A DNA stretch of 64,000 nt from positions 124,001 to 188,000 of the forward strand of contig QQUA01000023.1 in NCBI GenBank assembly GCA_008501825.1. The letters are read 5' to 3'. The notes under the pieces are model-generated. The model was not told where the DNA came from and did not search any database. It saw only the letters and a program-made list of their open reading frames with translations. The DNA comes from Planctomycetota bacterium (GTDB taxonomy: Bacteria > Planctomycetota > UBA1135). Made by a program: the position numbers and the translations under genes. Position 1 is the stretch's first letter. Each line of letters starts with the position of its first letter. Positions 26,394-49,572 of the stretch are shown here, one piece after another.

Positions 26394-26510
26394 GAATCCA
26401 GATTAGCAACGCGAGGACCGGCCCAAAGATCTTCGTGTTGTGCAGATTCATGAAAATGCAAGGCTTGCTGGTACGTAGTCTTGGGGCTGGGTCCCAACCG
26501 ACCGACTGCC

Positions 26511-29500
26511 ATGAAAATCGCTCCTTGCTTGTTTTGGTTCTTGGCTTTCCTTCCCTCCGGCCTGCTCGCACAGGAGAACGCCTTCCCACCTTCGCCTCCA
26601 GGGGACCAAGGAATTCGTGACGAAGCCCTGCTGGAGCTCGGCGCCTGGATCCAAGAGCAGGTAGATCAGCGGCATATTGTCGGGGCCGAATTCCTGGTCA
26701 TCAAGAACCGGCGCACGGTCTTTCATCAAGGCTACGGTTGGCGAAATCGAGAGGCCGGCCTAGCCATGGAGCCGGGTTCGGTTTTCAACGTCCGCTCCAT
26801 GACCAAGCCCCTTACCGGAACGTTGATGCACCAGCTATTCCGGGAAAAAGGCTTGTCCTTGAGTCTTCCGGTGGCCGAGTTTCTTCCCAGCTTCGCTGAA
26901 GGAGAAAGCGCCAAAATCACCGTCGAACAACTGGCCCAGCACCGCAGCGGTTTGCCGCTGACCATGTTGACCACTCTACAAGAGGTAGACAATCTGCAAG
27001 AGATCGCCGAAAAAGCTGGCAAGAGCGGCCCGACGTTGGAACCAGGAAGTGAATTTCAATATAGCGATACTGGTTCGGATACTTTGGGCGCCGTACTCGA
27101 AGTGGTGGCCGAAAAGAGTCTGGATCGCCTGTTCCAAGAAAGAATCCTCGATCCGCTGGGGATGCAATCATCCAGCCCGCTATTGACAGAAGATCAATTG
27201 GACCAATGGCCGCTTTGTAGTTTATACGGAGGTTTATCTGCCAATTGGGAACCGTTTTGGCAACCTTCCGATGGAAAGCCTTTTTATCCCTTCACCATGG
27301 GTTCGCAAAGTTTGTATTGCACTTTGGAGAACTATGCCCGTTTTTTAGCCGCCTGGATCGATGAGGGAGTTTGGAAGGACCAGCGATGGATCGCCAAAGA
27401 AGCGGTGGCTCAAGCGACTCAGCCCTTTTCCACGGCTGCGAAGCTGCCCACTTCCATTCCTGATTTGGAAGTCAAATACGGCCACATGTGGCTGCTTTAT
27501 CAAGACCAAGAGGGTGAAACCGTCATTCTCAGCCACAGCGGCTCCGACGGAACCTGGGCTTGGGCCTGGCCCCAACAAGACCTCATTGTTTGCTTCTTCA
27601 CTCAATCCAGAGGTCAAGGCACCGGCATAGATTTGGAAGCCAAAATCGACCGATTGCTGGCCAGGCCGGACAGCTATGGCGAAGAAATCGCCTTGGCCAA
27701 AGAATTGCGCCCATGTTTGGGAACCTACTTGGCCAACTTTGGTCGGTTTCGGAATACCGAGTTCCACGTGGTCGAGCAAAACGGCCAGTTGGCGGTGCAA
27801 CTGCCGCAGCAAATCACCAGCCTGTTGCAGCCCACGGAAGAAGAAGGGCTATTCGCTTTGAAAATTGATTCTCGAGTGAAAATCGGATTTTTGAAAACCG
27901 AAAGTGGCCTGGTCGAAGCCATGCAATTGCATCAGGGCGATCAAAGCTTCACCCTACCCCGTGGCAAAGCTGCCGCAGAAAGAAAAATCACCGAGCAAGA
28001 AGTGGCCGACTTTTTGGGTTTCTATCATGACCCGGAAGCCGGGCAAGACGTGGAGATGGTGCTCTTTAAGGATCAATTGGCAGTCAAAGTACCGAATATG
28101 CCGGCTCCCTTGGCTTTTCATCCTCCAGATGAAGAGAATCGGTGGGCCCTGAAGGTAAATGCCTCTGTATCCATCCGCTTTCAAAGGGATCAGGCCGGCC
28201 GAGTCACCGGCTATCGGGTTTTCAGCCCGGACGGCAAGGAATATTGGCGCCCTCGAGTAGTGCAAAAAGAAGAGGCCGAAACCTCGACGGAAACCGAAAC
28301 GATCGAAGAACCTCCAAGTTTCCAAGATCCAGAGCTCCAAGCTCGTCTCACCGCCCTATCGGAGCAATTGGAAAAACAACGACAAGAATATCGAATCCCA
28401 GGAATGGCTTTGGCCATTGTCTACCAGGGAAGACCCATTTGGGTTCAAGGCTTCGGAGTCTCCGATGTGGAAGCTCAAACTCCGGTGACTCCAAGGACGG
28501 TGTTCGCCATCGGATCGGTTGGAAAGTCCTTTACCAGCCTGCTGATGACTTCACTGGCCCAAGAGGGGCAATTGGATTTAGATGCACCGGTTACCCAGTT
28601 CATCCCTTACTTCGATTTGAACATCCAATCAGAAGATCCCAAAGCCGAAGTCACCCTCCGGGATTTGCTCTGCCACCGAACTGGCTTTACCCGCATGGGA
28701 GTGTTGTGGAAGAATTTGCAGATCCCGCACGAGAAGATCTTGAAAACGGCGGCAGGGGCGACACCGTATGCACCCTTTCGAAAGAGATTTCTTTACAACA
28801 ACGTCATGTACCTAGCCGCTGGAGTGGCAGCGGAAGCGGCCACCGGGAAATCCTGGGCCCATCATATCGAGACTCGTTTCTTGAAACCTTTGCAGATGAA
28901 AGACAGCAGCGTCTTACAACCGAAAACCGAAGCCAGAAGAGAGGGAAGATTTCACGACGGCTACCATTGGAACGAGTTCAAGCAATCTTACCGCAGCTTG
29001 CCGCTCGTGGACTTAAGCTCCATCGCTCCGGCCGGCGGGATTTATTCCACCGCAGCCGACATGGCTCACTACATTCAAGCTTTGCTGGACGACGGCCGCT
29101 TCGGCAACCGGAAGGTTTTTGAAAAAGAGGCTCTGGAAGCCTGTTGGTCTCCTCACACCCCGGTCGGCGGCGGAGTTTCCTACGGCTTGGGCTGGATGCT
29201 AGGAGAGTGGCAAGGTCAACCGGAGTGGCAACATGGCGGCAACATCGACGGCTTCGCCGCTCAGGTGGCTCTTTTACCGGAACAAGATCTTGGCCTGGTG
29301 TTGTTGGCCAACATGACTTCGACGCCCTTGACCAAAGAAGTCCTGCCCTTGGTCTGGAACGCCGTTCTCGGCTCAAAGGAAAGTTCGTCCGACGTCAATT
29401 ACCAACCCTATTTGGGCTCCTACAAGGCGAACTTCGGCCAGTTTCAGGACGCCACTTTCACGGTCAAGGCCCACAACGGCAAGCTAGCCTTGGACGTTCC

Positions 29501-30638
29501 CGGGCAGCAGTTGTTCCAGCTCCAGGATCCGGATGAACAAGGATTTTGGAATTTCGCCGCTACAGACCAGATCCGAGTGGTTTTCGAGCGGGATGCCCAG
29601 GACCAGGTGGTCATGCTGAAGCTGCATCAAAGCGGCTATATTTTCGAATTGCCGCGGGAAGGGTTCTCACCGCCTCCGCCATCGGGCTACCCCGCCCTTC
29701 AGGATCTATTGGGCCAATACCGGTGCCAGGAACTTGACCAAAACGTCGAGCTTCTGCAACGCGATGGAGCTTTGATCTTCCTTCGATCCGGAGGCAATCC
29801 GGCAATCTTGTTGCCGCCGAATCCCCAAGGTCATTGGGTCCTCAAAATTCGCCGGGACCGCTTCCTGACCTTTGCATCGAGCTTGCAGGGAGAAATCGAC
29901 GCTTTCATTTACCACCAGCCCGGCGCCGAATACCGGTATGAAAAGATCGCCGGGAGCACCCCCAAGCCGTTGCCGGATTTGGAACTTTTGCTGTCCAAAC
30001 GAGCCGACCAACTTTCAACTCAAGCTCTGGCCAATCTCGGAATCGTAGCTTTGACCGGGCGTTTGGACATGCCGCACTCCGGCATTCGCGGCACCATGAG
30101 TTTTCTTTTTCAAGGAAAGGAGCGTTTGGAGGTTTACCGCGACTTCGGTGATTTCGGTTGGAGCCGAGGAGTCATGGACGGCAATTTCGGCTTTCATGAA
30201 GGTACCGCTTCTTCCTATGAAGAGTTGACCGGTCGCAGCTTGAAACAAATGCAAGAAAGCCATCCCATGATCTGGCTGGGCGATCTCCGCGAAGCTTTTG
30301 CTGAGATCGAAATCCTTCGAAGGGAACAAGTTCAGGGAAGAACCACAGTCCTGTTGAAAGCGGGCAATCCCGGCCTGCCGCCTCACCGCTTGTGGCTGGA
30401 TGAAGAGACCGGTGACATTCTCAGAGAAAGCTACCCAAGAGTCAGCGACGAAGGCATGCCGGATTTCCCGATGGATTTCTACTACAGCGATTACCAGACT
30501 CGCCAAGGGTTACGCCTTCCCACCACCATCCGCTTCAGTCAAACCGCCACCGGCACCGTCACCATGACCGTAGAAAAAGTGGAGATTGGAGTGGATCCGG
30601 ATACCGTTTCCTGGCAGCCTCGCCTTAAAAACCGCTGA
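26511..30638 (+). CDS. Tandem serine beta-lactamase-fold protein, 1375 residues
   Basis: ATG 26511 gives a signal peptide (IAPCLFWFLAFLPSGLLA). Domain 1 has SMTK (96-99), YSD (184-186) in place of YxN, and HSG (342-344). Domain 2 has SVGK (669-672), YNN (762-764) and HGG (908-910), the complete class C/PBP-type triad. Each domain is followed by two beta repeats resembling DUF3471 (YLANFGRFRNTEF, FLGFYHDPEAG, YLGSYKANFGQF, LLGQYRCQELD). The last 200 residues look like a LolA-type half-barrel. Such proteins are usually esterases or D-amino-acid peptidases rather than antibiotic lactamases. A hairpin follows the stop. Confidence 0.88.
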   Translation: MKIAPCLFWFLAFLPSGLLAQENAFPPSPPGDQGIRDEALLELGAWIQEQVDQRHIVGAEFLVIKNRRTVFHQGYGWRNREAGLAMEPGSVFNVRSMTKPLTGTLMHQLFREKGLSLSLPVAEFLPSFAEGESAKITVEQLAQHRSGLPLTMLTTLQEVDNLQEIAEKAGKSGPTLEPGSEFQYSDTGSDTLGAVLEVVAEKSLDRLFQERILDPLGMQSSSPLLTEDQLDQWPLCSLYGGLSANWEPFWQPSDGKPFYPFTMGSQSLYCTLENYARFLAAWIDEGVWKDQRWIAKEAVAQATQPFSTAAKLPTSIPDLEVKYGHMWLLYQDQEGETVILSHSGSDGTWAWAWPQQDLIVCFFTQSRGQGTGIDLEAKIDRLLARPDSYGEEIALAKELRPCLGTYLANFGRFRNTEFHVVEQNGQLAVQLPQQITSLLQPTEEEGLFALKIDSRVKIGFLKTESGLVEAMQLHQGDQSFTLPRGKAAAERKITEQEVADFLGFYHDPEAGQDVEMVLFKDQLAVKVPNMPAPLAFHPPDEENRWALKVNASVSIRFQRDQAGRVTGYRVFSPDGKEYWRPRVVQKEEAETSTETETIEEPPSFQDPELQARLTALSEQLEKQRQEYRIPGMALAIVYQGRPIWVQGFGVSDVEAQTPVTPRTVFAIGSVGKSFTSLLMTSLAQEGQLDLDAPVTQFIPYFDLNIQSEDPKAEVTLRDLLCHRTGFTRMGVLWKNLQIPHEKILKTAAGATPYAPFRKRFLYNNVMYLAAGVAAEAATGKSWAHHIETRFLKPLQMKDSSVLQPKTEARREGRFHDGYHWNEFKQSYRSLPLVDLSSIAPAGGIYSTAADMAHYIQALLDDGRFGNRKVFEKEALEACWSPHTPVGGGVSYGLGWMLGEWQGQPEWQHGGNIDGFAAQVALLPEQDLGLVLLANMTSTPLTKEVLPLVWNAVLGSKESSSDVNYQPYLGSYKANFGQFQDATFTVKAHNGKLALDVPGQQLFQLQDPDEQGFWNFAATDQIRVVFERDAQDQVVMLKLHQSGYIFELPREGFSPPPPSGYPALQDLLGQYRCQELDQNVELLQRDGALIFLRSGGNPAILLPPNPQGHWVLKIRRDRFLTFASSLQGEIDAFIYHQPGAEYRYEKIAGSTPKPLPDLELLLSKRADQLSTQALANLGIVALTGRLDMPHSGIRGTMSFLFQGKERLEVYRDFGDFGWSRGVMDGNFGFHEGTASSYEELTGRSLKQMQESHPMIWLGDLREAFAEIEILRREQVQGRTTVLLKAGNPGLPPHRLWLDEETGDILRESYPRVSDEGMPDFPMDFYYSDYQTRQGLRLPTTIRFSQTATGTVTMTVEKVEIGVDPDTVSWQPRLKNR

Positions 30639-36632: not shown

Positions 36633-36656
36633 AACTGGCACAAACTATTGGAGGTA
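36629..36656 (+). repeat. IS left inverted repeat
   Basis: 28 bp beginning CTGAAACTGGCACAAACTAT. It is complementary to 37744-37771 with one mismatch (position 20). The TGA at its tip is the stop codon of the SGNH hydrolase gene. Confidence 0.9.
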
Positions 36657-37664
36657 GGAGGAAGAAAAGATCCTCCACCGAAACAGCTCCCTGGCGGTCC
36701 AACGCTGAGAAGTCACCCCCAGCAACATCCCCGGAGTCGGGGGCTCGCCCTCGGCGGTGATCGGCCGCACGTAGTTGCGCCACAAAAGCCACAGCCACAT
36801 GTGCAGCCGCAGCCAACTCCGCTTCTTGGAGTGGCCCCAGTTGCGGCGCACCAGCCGGGAGAGGTTGTCCCGCATCTGGGCCAGGGTGTGGTTGATCGGA
36901 AACAGCGGGTTGCCCCGGTCCCGCTTGCGCTTGGAGCACTCCTGCAGGTGCTGGAAACCTGCCGCTCCAAACACCGATTTCAAGACGCTGGGATAGATCT
37001 TCTTGCGATCGCTTTGCAGCACCGCCGGCTGCCTTGGAGGCAAGACCTCCTTCAAAGTCTGCAAGCAAGCTTCCACTCCTTGCCGCGACTGCGAGCGTCT
37101 CTTGCCGAATAGTTTTTCCCGTTCCTCCTTCTTCTTTCTCAACCGCGGAGGGAGCGATCCCCGGCAGGGCAAGGTGCCGGCGGTCAGGTGAACGACGAAA
37201 TACTTGGCACGGTGGATCAGCACCGGAACGGTCACCGGCTGCAGTCTGCGGTCGGTTTCGAAGGTTTCCAACTCATCCAGTTGAAACACTCCCGGCAGTC
37301 CGCCTCGAGCGGCCACCTCCTGTAATCGCAAGCGATGGAAGCGGCGAGCGTGTTCGCCCATGCGCAACAAGCGATCGGCCAAGGTGCGGCGATCCACTCC
37401 CAGCATGCGAGCGCTTTGTCGCAGGGTGACCTTGCTCACCACCAGCGGCCAGAAGTCGAGATGGAGCCGGCCGTACTTCAGGCGATAGTGAAACTTGAAG
37501 CTTTGCGACGAGAAGGAACGGCGGCAGCCGTGGCACCAAAAGCGCTGGATTCTGCGTTGCTGTCGGCCACTGTAGAAGCCTCGTTTTTGAAAGCGGAAAG
37601 GGACGGAATCGGTGCGGCTGGGACAGGCGTCCCAGGGGCAGTGCGGGGGTTGAAAACGCGGCAT
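36645..37664 (-). CDS. Zinc-ribbon DDE-type transposase of the insertion sequence
   Basis: 339 residues. The N-terminus holds a Cys-rich zinc-ribbon-like unit (CPWDAC about residues 9-14, then FWCHGCRRSF) and a helix-turn-helix region (TLRQSARMLGVDRRTLADRLLRMG), as in IS1/IS1595-like elements. Candidate catalytic acids are the first Asp in FQLDELETFE and the second in VLQSDRKKIYPSV. The expected third Glu is not obvious: the matching helix reads INHTLAQMRDNLSRLVRR. It ends inside the left inverted repeat. The family is close to zinc-ribbon transposases of Planctomycetota and relatives; exact IS family not assigned. Confidence 0.85.
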   Translation of the reverse strand: MPRFQPPHCPWDACPSRTDSVPFRFQKRGFYSGRQQRRIQRFWCHGCRRSFSSQSFKFHYRLKYGRLHLDFWPLVVSKVTLRQSARMLGVDRRTLADRLLRMGEHARRFHRLRLQEVAARGGLPGVFQLDELETFETDRRLQPVTVPVLIHRAKYFVVHLTAGTLPCRGSLPPRLRKKKEEREKLFGKRRSQSRQGVEACLQTLKEVLPPRQPAVLQSDRKKIYPSVLKSVFGAAGFQHLQECSKRKRDRGNPLFPINHTLAQMRDNLSRLVRRNWGHSKKRSWLRLHMWLWLLWRNYVRPITAEGEPPTPGMLLGVTSQRWTARELFRWRIFSSSYLQ

Positions 37665-39461: not shown

Positions 39462-40001
39462 CTACCACTTCGGACCTTCGCCGACGAAGTAAGTCAACCA
39501 ATCGCGATTGTTGTGCCGCAACAGACCGGTATTGGCATCGCCATCGTCCAGATCTTGATCGATTCTTTCCAAGATCTTTCGAGTCAAGGCGCCGCCGCGC
39601 ATCGAGATCAGCACTTCATTGCCTAACTGCCCGTCAAAGTTAAACGGGCTGTAGCTCCAATATTCATAGTCGTATGAACCTCCCCAAGGATGTCCGTTGG
39701 TGGGCCAACGTTCCAGATAAGGTCCATCCCAAAGTTTGCTGATGTCGCTGCGAACCCGGCTCTTGCTGGTCAAGCCCGGGTCGACGTTGCGAGAAACGTC
39801 AGGCGGATAATAATTTGTGTCGAAGAAGACTTTGGTTAGCGAGTTCTTGAAAGACTTCAGTTCGGTCTCAGCCCGAGCCACCTTGGACTTGTCAATGGAA
39901 GTCCCGAATCTTGGAATCAAGGTGGCGGCCAATACCGAAAGAATGACCACGACAACCAAAACTTCCAAAAGAGAGAATCCTTGTTTTCCTCGAAGGTTCA
40001 T
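39462..40001 (-). CDS. Type II secretion GspG-like major pseudopilin
   Basis: 179 residues. A textbook prepilin signal: short basic leader MNLRGKQG, cleavage before Phe9, Glu13 at +5 and a hydrophobic helix LLEVLVVVVILSVLAATLIP. The globular part (AETELKSFKNSLTKVFFDTNYYPP, LWDGPYLERWP) matches the GspG family. No other secretion genes are in view, so it is a solitary pseudopilin. It may feed a type II system elsewhere or have been duplicated for a special role. Confidence 0.9.
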   Translation of the reverse strand: MNLRGKQGFSLLEVLVVVVILSVLAATLIPRFGTSIDKSKVARAETELKSFKNSLTKVFFDTNYYPPDVSRNVDPGLTSKSRVRSDISKLWDGPYLERWPTNGHPWGGSYDYEYWSYSPFNFDGQLGNEVLISMRGGALTRKILERIDQDLDDGDANTGLLRHNNRDWLTYFVGEGPKW

Positions 40002-40210: not shown

Positions 40211-41053
40211 TTAGCGGCCTTGGAAGTCGGCTTTGCGCTTCTCCATGAAGGCCTTGGTTCCTTCACGCATATCCCGAGTGGTGAACACCATGCCAAAGGC
40301 ATCGGCCTCGGAGGCTTCGCCTTCCGATTGGCTACCTTCCTGGCCCCGACGGATGCATTCCAATGCCAATTGCATGGCCACCGGGCCGCGGGAAGCCAGG
40401 GTCTTGGCCAAGGCCACAGTGGCTTCGGTCAATTTTTCCGGTTCCACCAAGCGATTGACCACGCCAACCCGATGAGCTTCTTCCGCGGAAAAATGATCGC
40501 CGGTCAAGATCCATTCCCGGGCCAATCCAGGCCCGGCCAGACGACTCAGGCGCTGGGTTCCGCCAAAGCCTGGCAGTAATCCCAATCCCACTTCGGGCAG
40601 GCCGAGGCGGGCCTTGGTGGAAGCCACTCGAAGATGGCAGGCAAGAGCCAGTTCCAATCCGCCGCCGAGAGCGAAGCCTTGAATCATGGCGATCACCGGT
40701 TTCGGGCAATCTTCCACCATGTTCAAAGTTGCCTGGCCAAGACGGCTGAAATCGCGGGCTTCCAAAGCTTCGAACTCGGCCATTTCCGCAATGTCGGCGC
40801 CGGCAACGAAGGCTTTCTCGCCCCCACCGCTGAGGACGATGACTTTGATTTCGGGATCGGCGGCCAAAGCTTCCATGGCCAAGGCCAATTCATCCAGCAC
40901 TTCGCTATTCAAAGCGTTCAACACCTTGGGGCGTTGAATCATCAGATTGGCGATTCCCGGAGCCATCTCGTGCAGTTCGAGGTGTTCGAACTCCACCAGA
41001 TCCTCTTCCGAGATTTCCAATTCCGCTTCGGTTTGCAGTTCGTCCACGATCAA
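40211..41053 (-). CDS. Enoyl-CoA hydratase/isomerase family protein
   Basis: 280 residues; the start is TTG 41053, which overlaps the previous stop as TTGA (a GTG two codons later is an alternative). The crotonase fold is clear: GAKAF-like GGGEKAFVAGADIAEM, the oxyanion-hole helix IQGFALGGGLELALAC, and GLPEVGLGLLPGFGGTQRL with the catalytic Glu position filled. Residues 1-30 are an acidic extension. It is the last gene of an operon with a thiolase and two peptidyl-prolyl isomerases; the thiolase points to a fatty-acid or short-chain acyl-CoA pathway. Confidence 0.92.
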   Translation of the reverse strand: MIVDELQTEAELEISEEDLVEFEHLELHEMAPGIANLMIQRPKVLNALNSEVLDELALAMEALAADPEIKVIVLSGGGEKAFVAGADIAEMAEFEALEARDFSRLGQATLNMVEDCPKPVIAMIQGFALGGGLELALACHLRVASTKARLGLPEVGLGLLPGFGGTQRLSRLAGPGLAREWILTGDHFSAEEAHRVGVVNRLVEPEKLTEATVALAKTLASRGPVAMQLALECIRRGQEGSQSEGEASEADAFGMVFTTRDMREGTKAFMEKRKADFQGR

Positions 41054-41586
41054 GCCTCCGCCAAACTAACGGTCATTCGAGTAATGCCGACATCGCTTTT
41101 CGGCCGGTCCTGGCCGTCGGTCGGAGTGGTGGCCGCGGCGTCCAAAATGTCGAGGCCGTCCACAACTTCACCGAAAGCGGCGTATTGGCCGTCCAGGAAG
41201 TCAGCATCCCGGTGGCAAATGAAGAATTGGCAGGACGCCGAATCCGGGTGCTGCGCCCTGGCCATGCTCAAAACACCGCGCTTGTGGCTAAAGCGGGGAT
41301 CGGTGCTGAATTCACCGGGGATGTTGCCTTTCGGGCCCCCGCCGGTGCCATTGCCCAGAGGACATCCACCCTGAATCATGAAGCCCTCAATGATGCGGTG
41401 GAATCCTTTGCCGTCGTAGAAACCTTCGGCGGCGTAGGCCAGAAAGTTGCGCACGGTTTGCGGCGCCGCTTGCGGCCAAAACTTTAAGGAAATGCTGCCC
41501 ACCGGCTTTCCACCGATGCTGATTTCCAGGTTTGCGCGAGCCTGTTCCAGCTCGGCTTCTTTCAGGTTTGCGATGTCAAGGCTCAT
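41050..41586 (-). CDS. Cyclophilin-type peptidyl-prolyl cis-trans isomerase
   Basis: 178 residues, no signal peptide, so cytoplasmic. The cyclophilin core is complete: FLAYAAEGFYDGKGFHRIIEGFMIQGG (catalytic Arg in FHRI), GVLSMARAQHPDSASCQFFICHRDADFLDGQYAAFGEVVDG. It is a close relative of the cyclophilin half of the lipoprotein encoded just upstream, suggesting a local duplication with one copy kept cytoplasmic. The upstream gene's stop is 10 bases away. Confidence 0.92.
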   Translation of the reverse strand: MSLDIANLKEAELEQARANLEISIGGKPVGSISLKFWPQAAPQTVRNFLAYAAEGFYDGKGFHRIIEGFMIQGGCPLGNGTGGGPKGNIPGEFSTDPRFSHKRGVLSMARAQHPDSASCQFFICHRDADFLDGQYAAFGEVVDGLDILDAAATTPTDGQDRPKSDVGITRMTVSLAEA

Positions 41587-41596
41587 GGGTTTCCGC

Positions 41597-42961
41597 CTAT
41601 TTCAGGCGTTTGATGATGTGCCAACCGAAACGGGAAAGGCGCAAGTCGTAAGCAGCCATGCCGACTTCACCAACTTTGAGGTTGAAACTCACGTCTCCGA
41701 AGGCCTGCACCATTTGATCCCTAGGAAGGACCATATTGGGCAGCAATTGAGCCATTAGTTCGGAACGCTTCTGCTCCACCTCTTTGCCGGCCTCTTCGGC
41801 GCTCAACTCCTTGGCATTGACCCGGCGGCGAAGATCCTCTTGAAAGGCCCGCCACTCTTTTTCCAAACGGAATTCCAGTCGTTCGAAAGCCCGATCCCGG
41901 ACTCCCCGGTTCAACATCCGATAAGTCCCGGGCTGGGGATCCCCCGGCTTCACCGGATCGTCGGAAAACTCCCGCACCAAAGCGGTGAAGTCTTCTCCCT
42001 TCTGGGCTCGCTCCAATACGGTTTTGGCCAAGGCCTCGGCCTCGGTTTTGTTGCGAGTGACGCCTTGCGGCCCGGCGCCCTGAAAGGAAATCAAAACGTG
42101 TTGCACTTCTACCTTTTCCGGCTGGCCTTTTAAATCCAAAACCACCGGCGGACGTTCAATCTTTTCTTCGGAAGGCGGCGGATCGCCCTTCTTCACTTCC
42201 GCCCGCAGGATTTTGACCTCCACCATGGGCCGGGACATCTGGCCGTTGATGGAGCGACCGACCTTGACGTCGGCCATGGCCTCCAAAGCGGACACGCCTC
42301 CGACCAAGCGGCCGAAAGCGGCGTACTGGCCGTCCAAATTCCAAACCTGAGGAGTGGAATCACAACAAATGAAGAACTGGCAGGAAGCCGAATCGGGGTT
42401 GCCCCCTTCACGGGCCATGCTCAACACGCCATATTCGTGGCGGTATTTCGGATCCTTGTGGAACTCGCCTTTGATTTCGCCATAGGGTCCATCTCCGCCT
42501 CCGGTGCCGGTGGGATCGCCACCCTGCACCATGAAGTCCCGCATAATGCGGTGGAACACCTTGCCGTCATAGAAACCTTCGGCGGCGTAACGGAGGAAGT
42601 TTCGCACCGTGATCGGCGCCACTTCCGGCCAGAAATCCAGCACCATGATGCCGGCACTCTTGCCGTCCACCGAAACTTCCAGTTCGACGAAGTAATTGGC
42701 GAGGGCTTGGTCGGAAATCGGTCCGCCCGGGGTGAAGTCGAACTCCGCCTCGCGCTTTTTCAGCGGCGCCTGAGCCGGAGCCGCAGGCGCTTGAGGCTGT
42801 TGCGGAAGCGGAATTTCTCCCGCCTCGGCAGCCTGGCCCTCGACGTCGGTGGCAGCAGGAGATTCGCCGGAAGCGGCAGGCTGGGAGACCGAGGCAGCTT
42901 CCTTGCAGGAAGCCAGCCAAGGCAACAGCAACAACAAAGGAATCAGGAACCAGCGATGCAT
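41597..42961 (-). CDS. Lipoprotein with fused cyclophilin and parvulin PPIase domains
   Basis: 454 residues; ATG 42961 gives a lipoprotein signal ending LASC (Cys19), followed by a Pro/Ala/Gln linker. Residues about 80-235 are a cyclophilin domain (GFYDGKVFHRIMRDFMVQGG, SMAREGGNPDSASCQFFICC). Residues about 280-454 are a parvulin/PpiC domain (VQHVLISFQGAGPQG, ALVREFSDDPVKPGDPQPGTYR, FGWHIIKRLK) interrupted by a roughly 60-residue charged insert. Two unrelated PPIase folds in one envelope protein is uncommon. It would assist folding of outer-membrane or secreted proteins. The thiolase gene ends 4 bases upstream. Confidence 0.9.
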   Translation of the reverse strand: MHRWFLIPLLLLLPWLASCKEAASVSQPAASGESPAATDVEGQAAEAGEIPLPQQPQAPAAPAQAPLKKREAEFDFTPGGPISDQALANYFVELEVSVDGKSAGIMVLDFWPEVAPITVRNFLRYAAEGFYDGKVFHRIMRDFMVQGGDPTGTGGGDGPYGEIKGEFHKDPKYRHEYGVLSMAREGGNPDSASCQFFICCDSTPQVWNLDGQYAAFGRLVGGVSALEAMADVKVGRSINGQMSRPMVEVKILRAEVKKGDPPPSEEKIERPPVVLDLKGQPEKVEVQHVLISFQGAGPQGVTRNKTEAEALAKTVLERAQKGEDFTALVREFSDDPVKPGDPQPGTYRMLNRGVRDRAFERLEFRLEKEWRAFQEDLRRRVNAKELSAEEAGKEVEQKRSELMAQLLPNMVLPRDQMVQAFGDVSFNLKVGEVGMAAYDLRLSRFGWHIIKRLK

Positions 42962-42965
42962 GGTG

Positions 42966-44156
42966 TCAGGGTCGCTCGAACAGGGCGGACATGCCGAGTC
43001 CGCCGGAGACGCAGAGAGTGGCCAGGCCGCGGCGGCTGCCGCGACGGCGCATCTCATGCAGCAGGGTGACGACGATCCTGGCGCCGGTACACCCGATGGG
43101 ATGGCCCAAAGCGATGGCGCCGCCGTTGACGTTCAGGCGGGCCGGATCAAAGGGCGTTTCTTGGAGTACGGCCAGAGCCTGGGCAGCGAAAGCCTCATTT
43201 AGCTCCACCAAGTCCAAATCTTCCAGGGAAAGGCGGCAGCGCTCCAACAGTTGGCGGGTGGCCGGAACCGGTCCCAGGCCCATTCGCTTGGGATCACAAC
43301 CGACCACTTGGCTGTCGGTCAATAAGGCCATGATTTCCAGACCGCGAGCCTCCGCCTCTTGGGGTCGCATCAACACCAGGGCAGCGGCGCCGTCGGTAAT
43401 GCCGCTGGAATTCCCCGCCGTCACACTGCCTTGCTCCCGGTCAAAGACCGGGGCCAGCTTGGCCAAGCTCTCGAGGCTGGTTTGGGGCCGCAAATGTTCG
43501 TCGGCGGCAATGATTTGCTCGCCTTTGCGGGTGGCCACGGTCACGGCAGCGATTTCGTCTTCGAATCGGCCGGCTTCCACCGCCGCGGCGGCTTTGTGCT
43601 GACTCTCCAAGGCGAACTGATCCTGCTGCTCCCGACTGATGTTGCGCTCCTTAGCCAGCAATTCGGCGGTTTCGCCCATGATCATGTCGGACAGCCGGCA
43701 AAGAAAGCCGTCGGCATACATCGCGTCTTTCAGGGGGGCGTCGCCGAGTCGATAGCCGGTCCGCATCCGGTCCAACAGGAAAGGCACCTGGCTCATGGAC
43801 TCCATGCCGCCGGCCACCACGATGCTGGATCGGCCCAGGCGGATTTCGTCGGCCGCCATTTGCACGCACTTGAGGCCGGAGGCACAAGCCTGATTCAGGG
43901 TCAAACCCGGGGTGGTTTCAGGCAGGCCGGCGCGGTGGACCACCTGCCGGGCCGGGTTAGGTCCGGCTCCGGCCTGGCGAGCATGGCCGAAGATCAGGCT
44001 GTCGACCTCCTCGGGAGGGATCTGGGCTCGCTTAAGCGCCTCTTCCACCACAACTTGGCCCATGGCCGGAGCGGACAAACTGGAAAGACCGCCAAGAAAA
44101 CGGCCGATGGGAGTTCGAACCGCACTGACGACGGCGACCGGAAACCGTGAGTTCAT
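42966..44156 (-). CDS. Acetyl-CoA acyltransferase (thiolase)
   Basis: 396 residues with the complete thiolase triad: Cys91 (LNQACASGLKC), His352 (ALGHPIGCTGAR) and Cys382 (ATLCVSGGLGM). It is the first gene of an operon that continues with two peptidyl-prolyl isomerases and an enoyl-CoA hydratase. Together with the hydratase it suggests acyl-CoA turnover, but the hydroxyacyl-CoA and acyl-CoA dehydrogenase genes are not in view. It is divergent from the fabH gene. Confidence 0.93.
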   Translation of the reverse strand: MNSRFPVAVVSAVRTPIGRFLGGLSSLSAPAMGQVVVEEALKRAQIPPEEVDSLIFGHARQAGAGPNPARQVVHRAGLPETTPGLTLNQACASGLKCVQMAADEIRLGRSSIVVAGGMESMSQVPFLLDRMRTGYRLGDAPLKDAMYADGFLCRLSDMIMGETAELLAKERNISREQQDQFALESQHKAAAAVEAGRFEDEIAAVTVATRKGEQIIAADEHLRPQTSLESLAKLAPVFDREQGSVTAGNSSGITDGAAALVLMRPQEAEARGLEIMALLTDSQVVGCDPKRMGLGPVPATRQLLERCRLSLEDLDLVELNEAFAAQALAVLQETPFDPARLNVNGGAIALGHPIGCTGARIVVTLLHEMRRRGSRRGLATLCVSGGLGMSALFERP

Positions 44157-47814: not shown

Positions 47815-49572
47815 TCACTGGGTCAATTTCTTCGGCATGATTCCCTCGGCCACCCAGCGGATGGAATTTCCGACCGTTTCTTGCAAGCGGCGCTCTTGAA
47901 CCGGCGAGGCCAACAAACGGATCAAGGCCAAAACCGGCAACTTGGCCATTGCATGAGAAGAAAGGGCCCGGAATTCCTCGAAGGCCACCACCGTGGTTTT
48001 GATGAGATGAGCTTGCACGATGGGCCGAACGGCGGAATCCGACAACACCCGATCTTGTAAGCGGATTTCCAGCTCTGGGACTAGTTCCGGCTGGTTGAGC
48101 AAATAGCTGGCTACGGCCACGGCACGAGGGGCGTCCTGTTCCGATAGCGCCGCTTCCAGGGCAGCCCAATTCCCCGATTGCGAAGTCGGCGCCAGCCGCC
48201 GTTCTCGCGGCAAGTCCATCCCACGGCCGGAGTGGATAAAGGCCAAGGTTTGAAACAAAAACGCCAGGGAGGACGGGCCGGGGCAACGCCGACAGGCTTG
48301 CCGCACGGCGGCGGCAAAGGTCAAACGGTGAGTCACCCACAACCAATTTTCCGCCACTTTTGGATTTTGATCCAGAGAAACGTCGAACCGAAGCAAACGT
48401 TCAGAAGCGGCAAGGGATAACACCTCGGCGATGGCATGCACCGGAACGCCTTGCTCCAAGAATTGCCACAATTGATCGACCGCTGGTTTGGCTTTGCCGT
48501 CCAAGACCGATTCGAACCAATCCCGAGAAGGCTCTCCAACCGACTTCTGCCTGGCCCACAAGTCCGGCAACTCTTCCCACCGGGCTTGGAGAGACTGAAA
48601 ATATGGCTTCATATAGGGCAGCAAATCCTCTCGGGTTCCCAGCAGATGACTGACCAAAAGAGAGCCATAGATTTCGGCCATCTGTTGGCCTTCGGCTTGA
48701 TCTCCTAGGGCGTCAAACAATTCTCCGGCCTTCACCATGTAAATCAGGGAATGGCCGAAGCCGGTAAAGTGCCGGGCAAGAAGTTGAAATAACCAAGCTT
48801 CCATTTCCTGGCGCGAACGCCCGTCTTCAAAACCGCCAAACCAACGGCCTTCCGCTTCCTCCAAACGTTCTCTTTCGACGGCGTCACACAGGGCTTGCCA
48901 ATCGCCACCGCGGATGGCGGAAGGTCGAGGTCGCGGGGGCATGCGCCGGTTGCTTTCGGCGCACAAGTCCATGACTGGAGCCATCGCAGCCATCGCCTGA
49001 ACGCCGGAATACCGGGGCAAATAACGAAGAGCGTCGGCGGCCAAGGCCAGCGTATGGGTAGTTCCATATTCGGCAAAGCGGGCATCGACCAAGGCAATTT
49101 CCAGCAATAGTTTTTGCGGAGAGAGGCCGGCTTGCAGCAGGCGGACGCCGTCTCGACAAAATCGCCCGACGTCGTGGCGGAACAAGGCTTCTTGCAAGCT
49201 CTTCAAAAGCGGAGGGATGGCTTGTTCAGGATCGGGATCGCTCAAGTCGACCTCCCAAACCCCTTGGTGCGATCGAACCGGATAACTGCGAACCCCTTCC
49301 CCTCCTAAAAGGCAGCGCCCGTCTCGCAAATCGAACTTCCAGTTGTGCCAGGTACAGGTCAGGCGGCAGTCCTGGACCTCCCCCTGCTGCAAGGGATAAC
49401 CCTCGTGGGGACAGCGGTTGTCGATGGCAAAGCACTCCCCTGCCGCGGTATGGACCAGGAGCAATTGCCGGCCGTCGATCTTCCAAACTTGACGACTTCC
49501 GGGGGGCAGTTCGGTCAAAGGGAGAGCGGCGGTCCATTGCCGGGCTGAAGTTGTTTGAGAGGGCTGGGTCAT
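47815..49572 (-). CDS. Rieske [2Fe-2S] protein with large C-terminal helical domain
   Basis: 585 residues. Residues 10-115 are a complete Rieske/ferredoxin domain of the nitrite-reductase-NirD or ring-hydroxylase type: Cys54-x-His56 (RCPHEG) and Cys73-x2-His76 (LTCTWHNWKF). The remaining 450 residues are all-alpha, with conserved-looking HTLALAADALRYLPRYSG and GFGHSLIYMVKAGELF, and show no cofactor motif I recognise. Proteins with this architecture occur in several phyla as uncharacterised Rieske proteins. Its start is divergent from a SufR-like Fe-S regulator gene, with operator-like palindromes in between, so regulation by that protein is very likely. No signal peptide, so cytoplasmic. Confidence 0.88.
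   Translation of the reverse strand: MTQPSQTTSARQWTAALPLTELPPGSRQVWKIDGRQLLLVHTAAGECFAIDNRCPHEGYPLQQGEVQDCRLTCTWHNWKFDLRDGRCLLGGEGVRSYPVRSHQGVWEVDLSDPDPEQAIPPLLKSLQEALFRHDVGRFCRDGVRLLQAGLSPQKLLLEIALVDARFAEYGTTHTLALAADALRYLPRYSGVQAMAAMAPVMDLCAESNRRMPPRPRPSAIRGGDWQALCDAVERERLEEAEGRWFGGFEDGRSRQEMEAWLFQLLARHFTGFGHSLIYMVKAGELFDALGDQAEGQQMAEIYGSLLVSHLLGTREDLLPYMKPYFQSLQARWEELPDLWARQKSVGEPSRDWFESVLDGKAKPAVDQLWQFLEQGVPVHAIAEVLSLAASERLLRFDVSLDQNPKVAENWLWVTHRLTFAAAVRQACRRCPGPSSLAFLFQTLAFIHSGRGMDLPRERRLAPTSQSGNWAALEAALSEQDAPRAVAVASYLLNQPELVPELEIRLQDRVLSDSAVRPIVQAHLIKTTVVAFEEFRALSSHAMAKLPVLALIRLLASPVQERRLQETVGNSIRWVAEGIMPKKLTQ

Follow-up and report, generated by a model that had tools for sequence, protein, structure and literature searches.

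The 64,000-nucleotide stretch of DNA analysed here (the window) encodes, at 41597..42961 on the (-) strand, a protein of 454 amino acids in which two unrelated prolyl isomerase (PPIase) folds, a cyclophilin and a parvulin, are joined in a single chain behind a lipoprotein-type signal. The fusion is real and probably functional, and in the family of the window's genome the protein is probably a foldase held by a tether, both of its heads being catalytic. A cyclophilin-parvulin fusion lipoprotein had been proposed at this place in an earlier note, and the open reading frame, the Pfam matches, the lipobox (by inspection) and the homologues now confirm it. The same note envisaged a two-headed periplasmic foldase and considered that active-site residues might be absent from one half; upon checking, both sets turned out to be complete in this one predicted lipoprotein, which supports the two-headed proposal as far as sequence can tell.

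The frame runs from 42961 to 41597 on the (-) strand without any internal stop, and its ATG lies 4 nt past the end of an upstream thiolase frame. Inspection of the N-terminus, MHRWFLIPLLLLLPWLASCK, identifies a lipoprotein-type signal (residues 1-19, 42905..42961 (-)) with the lipobox LASC at residues 16-19, so that both the lipobox and the cysteine of a type II signal peptide are present, Cys19 being the residue expected to be lipidated; of 31 fused relatives, 25 have a cysteine at the same alignment position. One match to signal peptidase II and two to Omp85 in the genome make it plausible that the cell is diderm and that the protein is an envelope lipoprotein. A Pro/Ala/Gln-rich tether follows (residues 20-88, 42698..42904 (-)), delineated by its sequence and by low pLDDT in a full-length AlphaFold2 model, in which residues 1-67 stay below 50, and a linker (residues 257-282, 42116..42193 (-)), with residues 267-275 also below 50 in that model, joins both domains. 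The full-length model was built from a six-sequence alignment and gives a mean pLDDT of 63 for the cyclophilin half, too poor to show how the heads are arranged; a fold search with it returned cyclophilins among the best 50 of 231 matches.

The cyclophilin domain (residues 89-256, 42194..42697 (-)) was assigned by Pfam and by site alignment. PF00160 matches residues 100-256 with an E value of 9.1e-41, covering positions 8-159 of the 159 in the profile. On the reference numbering of CypA and Pin1, R138, F143, M144 and Q146 fall at the places of CypA R55, F60, M61 and Q63, and A183, Q195 and F197 at those of A101, Q111 and F113, so that the catalytic set R55/F60/M61/Q63/Q111/F113 is complete. 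Among the places that bear on cyclosporin A binding, W207 and L209 correspond to W121 and L122, with one extra residue before the Leu, while a Tyr (Y213) stands at the H126 place and an Arg at that of N102.

The parvulin domain comes in two parts, the N-terminal one (residues 283-353, 41903..42115 (-)) being assigned by Pfam, sites and fold, and the C-terminal one (residues 413-454, 41600..41725 (-)) by PDB matches, sites and AlphaFold2. PF13616 and PF00639 match at residues 277-367 with E values of 4.2e-15 and 9.8e-11, both above the curated cut-off, and in PDB sequence matches the C-terminal piece is picked up at about residue 414, after a gap. In a six-member alignment, one member of which (L008) stops short of the parvulin, Pfam recognises the cyclophilin in 6/6 and the parvulin in 3/6 (PF00639) or 2/6 (PF13616). 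The residues H288, D335 and M417 take the places of Pin1 H59, C113 and M130, and F421, F445 and H448 those of F134, S154 and H157; both active-site histidines, as well as an Asp at the position held by Cys or Asp, are therefore present. According to passages of PMC2678132, Asp is also found at the Pin1 C113 place in PrsA of S. aureus and B. subtilis, the C113D variant of Pin1 stays functional, and both active-site histidines are non-essential for Pin1 activity.

When the parvulin half was modelled alone with AlphaFold2 from five aligned sequences, a pLDDT of 92.7 and a pTM of 0.80 were obtained, and the model superimposes on a human Pin1 mutant structure (2f21) with Z 14.5 and an rmsd of 1.9 A over 106 residues, and on S. 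aureus PrsA (2jzv) with Z 12.8 and 2.6 A over 103 residues. The predicted structure is that of a complete Pin1/PrsA-type parvulin fold despite the interruption. Juglone, which had been put forward for assaying this half, is a thiol reagent. Because the only cysteines of the fusion protein are residues 19, 194, 199 and 200, none of them in the parvulin half, and an Asp stands at the Pin1 Cys113 place, the compound is a poor probe of it.

Between the two parvulin parts lies an insert (residues 354-412, 41726..41902 (-)), defined by AlphaFold2, by length and by its column pattern, which in the model of the parvulin half forms a confidently predicted antiparallel helical hairpin with helices at 357-382 and 388-409. 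The split parvulin announced earlier is thus real: the stretch from L350 to M417 has 68 residues, in place of the uninterrupted layout that is usual in parvulins without defining them, against the 9 residues from L122 to M130 in Pin1. The description of the interruption as about 60 charged residues holds for its length but not for its composition, just 28 of the 64 residues at 351-414 being charged (44%, net +2). Spans of 58-73 residues were found in 46/46 sequences, namely the window protein, 31 relatives with the fusion and 14 parvulins that are not fused to a cyclophilin, duplicates (L001, L002, L009, L034, L051, L052 and L053) being omitted from these counts. A further 11 fused proteins (L081, L083-L087 and L089-L093) match a hairpin-parvulin profile from end to end with similar length; three parvulins that belong to the order but to neither f1 nor f8 (L096, L097 and L099, of genomes G035, G028 and G151 in families f7, f4 and f5) match it in two pieces separated by a short gap and lack the insert, L038 also being left out of this comparison as belonging to the same genome as L095. 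Being of steady length and common to fused and separate parvulins, the hairpin is a family trait and not damage. Among the fold-search matches listed, none was a parvulin labelled as bearing a similar insert.

Duplication of a parvulin segment was also considered as a source of the insert, phmmer having aligned 'NRGVRDRAFERLEFRL' and 'PRDQMVQAFGDVSF' to overlapping stretches of Pin1. In the AlphaFold2 model NRGVRDRAFERLEFRL runs into the hairpin, its columns being variable, and PRDQMVQAFGDVSF contains the parvulin helix; the overlapping alignments are treated as probably due to chance.

Searches for relatives covered the window's family (f1) and a sister family (f8) of the same order, as well as the order and the phylum at large. 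The fusion protein was matched somewhere in 60 of 61 genomes (its own and 60 relatives), many of these matches involving only the cyclophilin, and the full two-domain fusion occurs in 23 of the 26 f1 genomes, that of the window included. The f1 exceptions are G013 and G014, whose cyclophilins lack a parvulin, and G017 (75% complete), in which no match was found. Four named records of other origin (L004-L007) contain the fusion too, L006 among them being taken as genome G079 of family f8, place and frame length agreeing; because L005 and L007 are titled Planctomycetota, the order carrying hairpin-parvulins is probably planctomycete. Within the order, 154 genomes were searched with the hairpin-parvulin profile and 56 gave a match at a threshold of 1e-15; among the matches listed, those that span the insert belong to f1 and f8 only. 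The profile also matches 35 of 294 genomes drawn across the phylum, the matches outside the order being partial. A two-domain profile at 1e-25 matches 300 of 392 genomes and, among the matches listed, reaches the cyclophilin and the parvulin end together in members of f1 and f8 only, in a survey that scored at most 4 candidates per genome and that fusions of a cyclophilin with an ordinary parvulin elsewhere could escape. Separate hairpin-parvulins were found in f1 genomes only, the f8 sequence L082 being cut by its contig. The window's own genome contains one of them (L039, G000:C1:376812-377342), a shorter lipoprotein-like hairpin-parvulin devoid of cyclophilin and 46% identical to the fused one.

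Active sites were scored in 43 fused proteins from 41 genomes, G015 (L025) and G084 (L004, L089) contributing two each, and L088, L094 and L052 being omitted as lying on the same contigs as L004, L007 and L025. The cyclophilin residues R55/F60/Q63/Q111/F113 are all retained in 38 of the 43 (23/24 in f1 and 15/19 in f8, where four proteins have lost a residue of the set), and a Trp stands at the W121 place in 29 (10/24 and 19/19, respectively). The parvulin set H59/D113/H157 is entire in 23/24 f1 proteins and in 5/19 of f8, the remaining 14 having lost at least one residue; only one f1 protein deviates, at both sites, and it is encoded by the second of the two fused copies in G015. Two active heads are hence probably not universal, given these 14 f8 proteins, and some lineages probably do without catalysis by the parvulin, since only 5/19 keep the full set in f8.

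Estimates of dN/dS were obtained from 11 pairs of relatives, none including the window protein; where computable, the cyclophilin gave values of 0.03-0.17 over 10 pairs, the parvulin core 0.04-0.26 over 9, the hairpin 0.07-0.53 over 8 and the N-terminal tether 0.15-0.66 over 10, dS being saturated in the remainder and short stretches with high dS making the values rough. Pairs with an altered parvulin site gave core values of 0.16 (L005/L007), 0.11 (L005/L006), 0.26 (L083/L084) and 0.04 (L091/L095). Parvulin heads of f8 that have lost catalytic residues thus appear to be under constraint, a hint that their role may in part be other than catalysis. That such heads are "dead" is a suggestion, because the dN/dS values are rough and the histidines may be dispensable, as passages of PMC2678132 indicate for Pin1. 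A broader and tentative proposal, to which we give a minority chance, is that of a distinct hairpin-parvulin family in which the hairpin was built into the parvulin within one order and the resulting module is used both alone and fused to a cyclophilin on a lipoprotein, with the hairpin-parvulin body rather than the active site being under selection, for docking, oligomerising or client holding; it is prompted by the altered-site versions that still look constrained. If true, this family would offer a natural series from active to pseudo-enzyme foldase heads.

These observations also bear on the main rival to the two-headed foldase, in which the cyclophilin is the only enzyme and the parvulin with its hairpin chiefly holds clients or binds partners, somewhat in the manner of SurA P1, the catalytic residues of the window protein being incidental. 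The imbalance within f8, where 14 of 19 proteins have an altered parvulin site against 4 with an altered cyclophilin site, points in this direction, as do the low core values of the altered-site pairs and the client-binding hotspot that part of PMC11401910 describes on the PPIase domain P1 of SurA. Nevertheless, f1 keeps all three parvulin residues in 23/24 fused proteins, and, if the histidines of Pin1 are non-essential (PMC2678132, in the passages mentioned), their loss need not mean inactivity, so that this one-headed version appears rather unlikely for the window's family.

The column pattern of the insert was analysed in 41 sequences with intact sites, altered-site proteins and ordinary parvulins being omitted. 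The insert columns are about twice as variable as those of the parvulin core, with a mean entropy of 2.63 versus 1.33 bits, and charged residues amount to 32% and 26%, respectively; the steadier columns of the insert are mostly hydrophobic and follow a heptad-like spacing (366, 377, 381, 395, 402), together with the turn at 383-391. Such a pattern would be expected of a two-helix hairpin that packs on itself and leaves its outer surface free. In SlyD, a chaperone domain is known to be inserted into a PPIase, and the hairpin might likewise be a chaperone domain inserted in a flap beside the parvulin active site, a reading compatible with the others. It would agree with the position of the hairpin between the strand of L350 and the helix of F421, with M417 just after it and thus near active-site residues in sequence. 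We consider it unlikely, however, since the steadier columns fit helix-helix packing, the insert is more variable and more charged than the core, and the sequence alone gives no sign of a hydrophobic patch that is both conserved and exposed.

A decaying parvulin passenger, disabled by the insertion, is very improbable: several lineages have indeed lost catalytic residues, and the second copy of G015 has lost those of both sites, but the fold is confidently modelled and complete, the active-site residues of the window protein are intact, the insert of 58-73 residues extends to the 14 parvulins outside the fusion, and dN/dS in relatives is low in core and insert alike. Damage or misassembly as the origin of the insert itself was ruled out by the relatives, the intact sites, the steady length, the confident model and the low dN/dS. 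It is extremely improbable that two genes were joined artificially by annotation or assembly, an idea in whose favour nothing was found, and chance is excluded, because the identical fusion, read here in a frame without stops, recurs in 23/26 family genomes and in L004-L007.

Regarding the history of the fusion, a tree of 106 cyclophilin domains places the 42 fused ones in one group (95/99), a single change being the fewest required (94% of 200 bootstraps); this tree leaves out L008 (contig end), the fused row of L035 (start cut) and L139 (from the genome of L036), and some of its long branches meet (L087, L091, L095). The unfused lipoprotein-side cyclophilin of G013 falls just outside the fused group (100/92) and may represent either the pre-fusion state or a loss, while its counterpart in G014 lies on the opposite side of the tree, at odds with a simple one-fusion picture. 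Tandem cyclophilin pairs of f8 and other families form a separate group; in the other families (L120-L138, among those read) the product of the upstream gene often lacks a lipoprotein tether and begins instead with an unlike region of ~150 residues. In the parvulin tree, from which L082 and one L096 fragment were omitted, the fused rows need 4 changes, ordinary parvulins sit inside the fused part, several branches are long and the bootstrap is unsettled. This tree thus favours neither the fused nor the separate hairpin-parvulin as the earlier form.

The surroundings of the gene are conserved in f1. A stand-alone cyclophilin of 178 amino acids with no signal peptide seen (41050..41586 (-), by Pfam and synteny) begins 10 nt past the fusion gene and adjoins it in 17/17 f1 loci examined; the thiolase gene lies directly upstream of the fusion (42966..44156 (-)) and an enoyl-CoA hydratase gene directly downstream of the stand-alone cyclophilin (40211..41053 (-)), both assigned by Pfam and conserved synteny. 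The order thiolase-fusion-cyclophilin-enoyl-CoA hydratase holds in all 17 fused f1 loci with enough flank (L100-L113, L117, L118, L052), a second thiolase being found further on in 14 of them and some kilobases off in the window, and these four genes are probably co-transcribed. At the G013 locus the same gene order is seen, the parvulin being absent; none of 7 f8 fusion loci showed f1-type neighbours. The conserved fatty-acid-type neighbours give no support to a folding role, and no functional reason is seen for the pairing with acyl-CoA enzymes.

Other features were recorded at these loci and in the window. G015 (L052 1710-5951) carries two tandem fused copies between the thiolase and the cyclophilin, and in the second copy neither active site has kept all its key residues. 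A type II secretion pseudopilin-like gene (N_methyl and T2SSG) lies at 39462-40001 (-), the third gene below that of the fusion. Another two-headed protein is encoded at 26481-30638 (+), a frame of 1385 amino acids with two beta-lactamase-type serine hydrolase stretches (PF00144), and the frame at 47815-49572 (-) combines a Rieske [2Fe-2S] domain with ~480 following residues that have no Pfam match at E 0.001. At the same threshold no Pfam match was found for the 339-residue frame at 36645-37664 (-), presumably resembling an IS1-type transposase with a zinc-finger start.

Considered as a foldase with two catalytic heads, the protein would be anchored to the envelope membrane by a lipid on Cys19, the flexible Pro/Ala-rich tether giving it reach into the periplasm. 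The cyclophilin and the parvulin would each isomerise X-Pro bonds, and the two heads could sample different sequence contexts of one client, candidate clients being proteins that leave the Sec translocon or those of the outer membrane and cell surface. The hairpin would spare the active site and might be an arm for docking or oligomerisation, or simply a spacer, and would be less likely to form a sticky flap that binds clients. Weighing against this reading, besides the altered parvulin sites of f8, are the retention of the Trp at the W121 place in just 10/24 f1 proteins and the Pfam recognition of the parvulin in no more than 3 of the six aligned members, one of which stops short of it.

In general, the protein seems to be a variation, specific to its clade, on a kind already known, and not an entirely novel one. 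Among the literature matches listed (titles and abstract starts, open-access, with most subscription journals outside the scope), none concerns a cyclophilin-parvulin fusion. The PrsA-type lipoproteins are likewise lipid-anchored parvulins with Asp and Phe at the Pin1 Cys113 and Ser154 places; here, on the contrary, a cyclophilin replaces the PrsA foldase domain, and a hairpin of ~59 residues is added to the parvulin. The curated PrsA model NF002846 scores 12.4 bits at residues 414-451 against a cut-off of 361, which does not place the protein within PrsA.

SurA has two parvulin domains and is not known to contain a cyclophilin or to be a lipoprotein. It is likewise periplasmic, multi-domain and parvulin-bearing, and its P1 domain takes part in client binding, according to part of PMC11401910. 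Streptococcal extracellular cyclophilins of the SlrA/PpiA type similarly act in the envelope on secreted proteins, and in Streptococcus pneumoniae a separate PrsA (parvulin) and SlrA (cyclophilin) aid one secreted client, as described in part of PMC11853100, whereas both kinds of domain are here on one chain and in a different phylum. The AquaCyps, too, are bacterial cyclophilins that are specific to a clade and greatly extended by insertions and other additions, but these, according to PMC4898713, make up a NIC domain on the cyclophilin and not a second PPIase.

The closest design is that of the CFBP dual-family immunophilins (cyclophilin-linker-FKBP; Barik, PMC6316441, PMC5852385), whose descriptions, in the parts considered, are likewise of bacterial proteins with two unrelated PPIase folds, the cyclophilin first and a linker between them. 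The second head is here a parvulin and not an FKBP (no FKBP family appears among the Pfam matches of the fusion protein up to E 1), the protein is a predicted lipoprotein, and those accounts, in the same parts, mention no helical hairpin, parvulins being set aside in PMC6316441. With the cyclophilin-parvulin pair, the dual-family design known from cyclophilin-FKBP chimeras thus takes in a further PPIase family and also occurs in a predicted lipoprotein. Moreover, f8 supplies natural variants in which catalytic residues of the parvulin are lost and the domain still looks constrained, which make it testable whether PPIase domains of envelope chaperones work as enzymes or as binding modules, the same question that has been raised for SurA.
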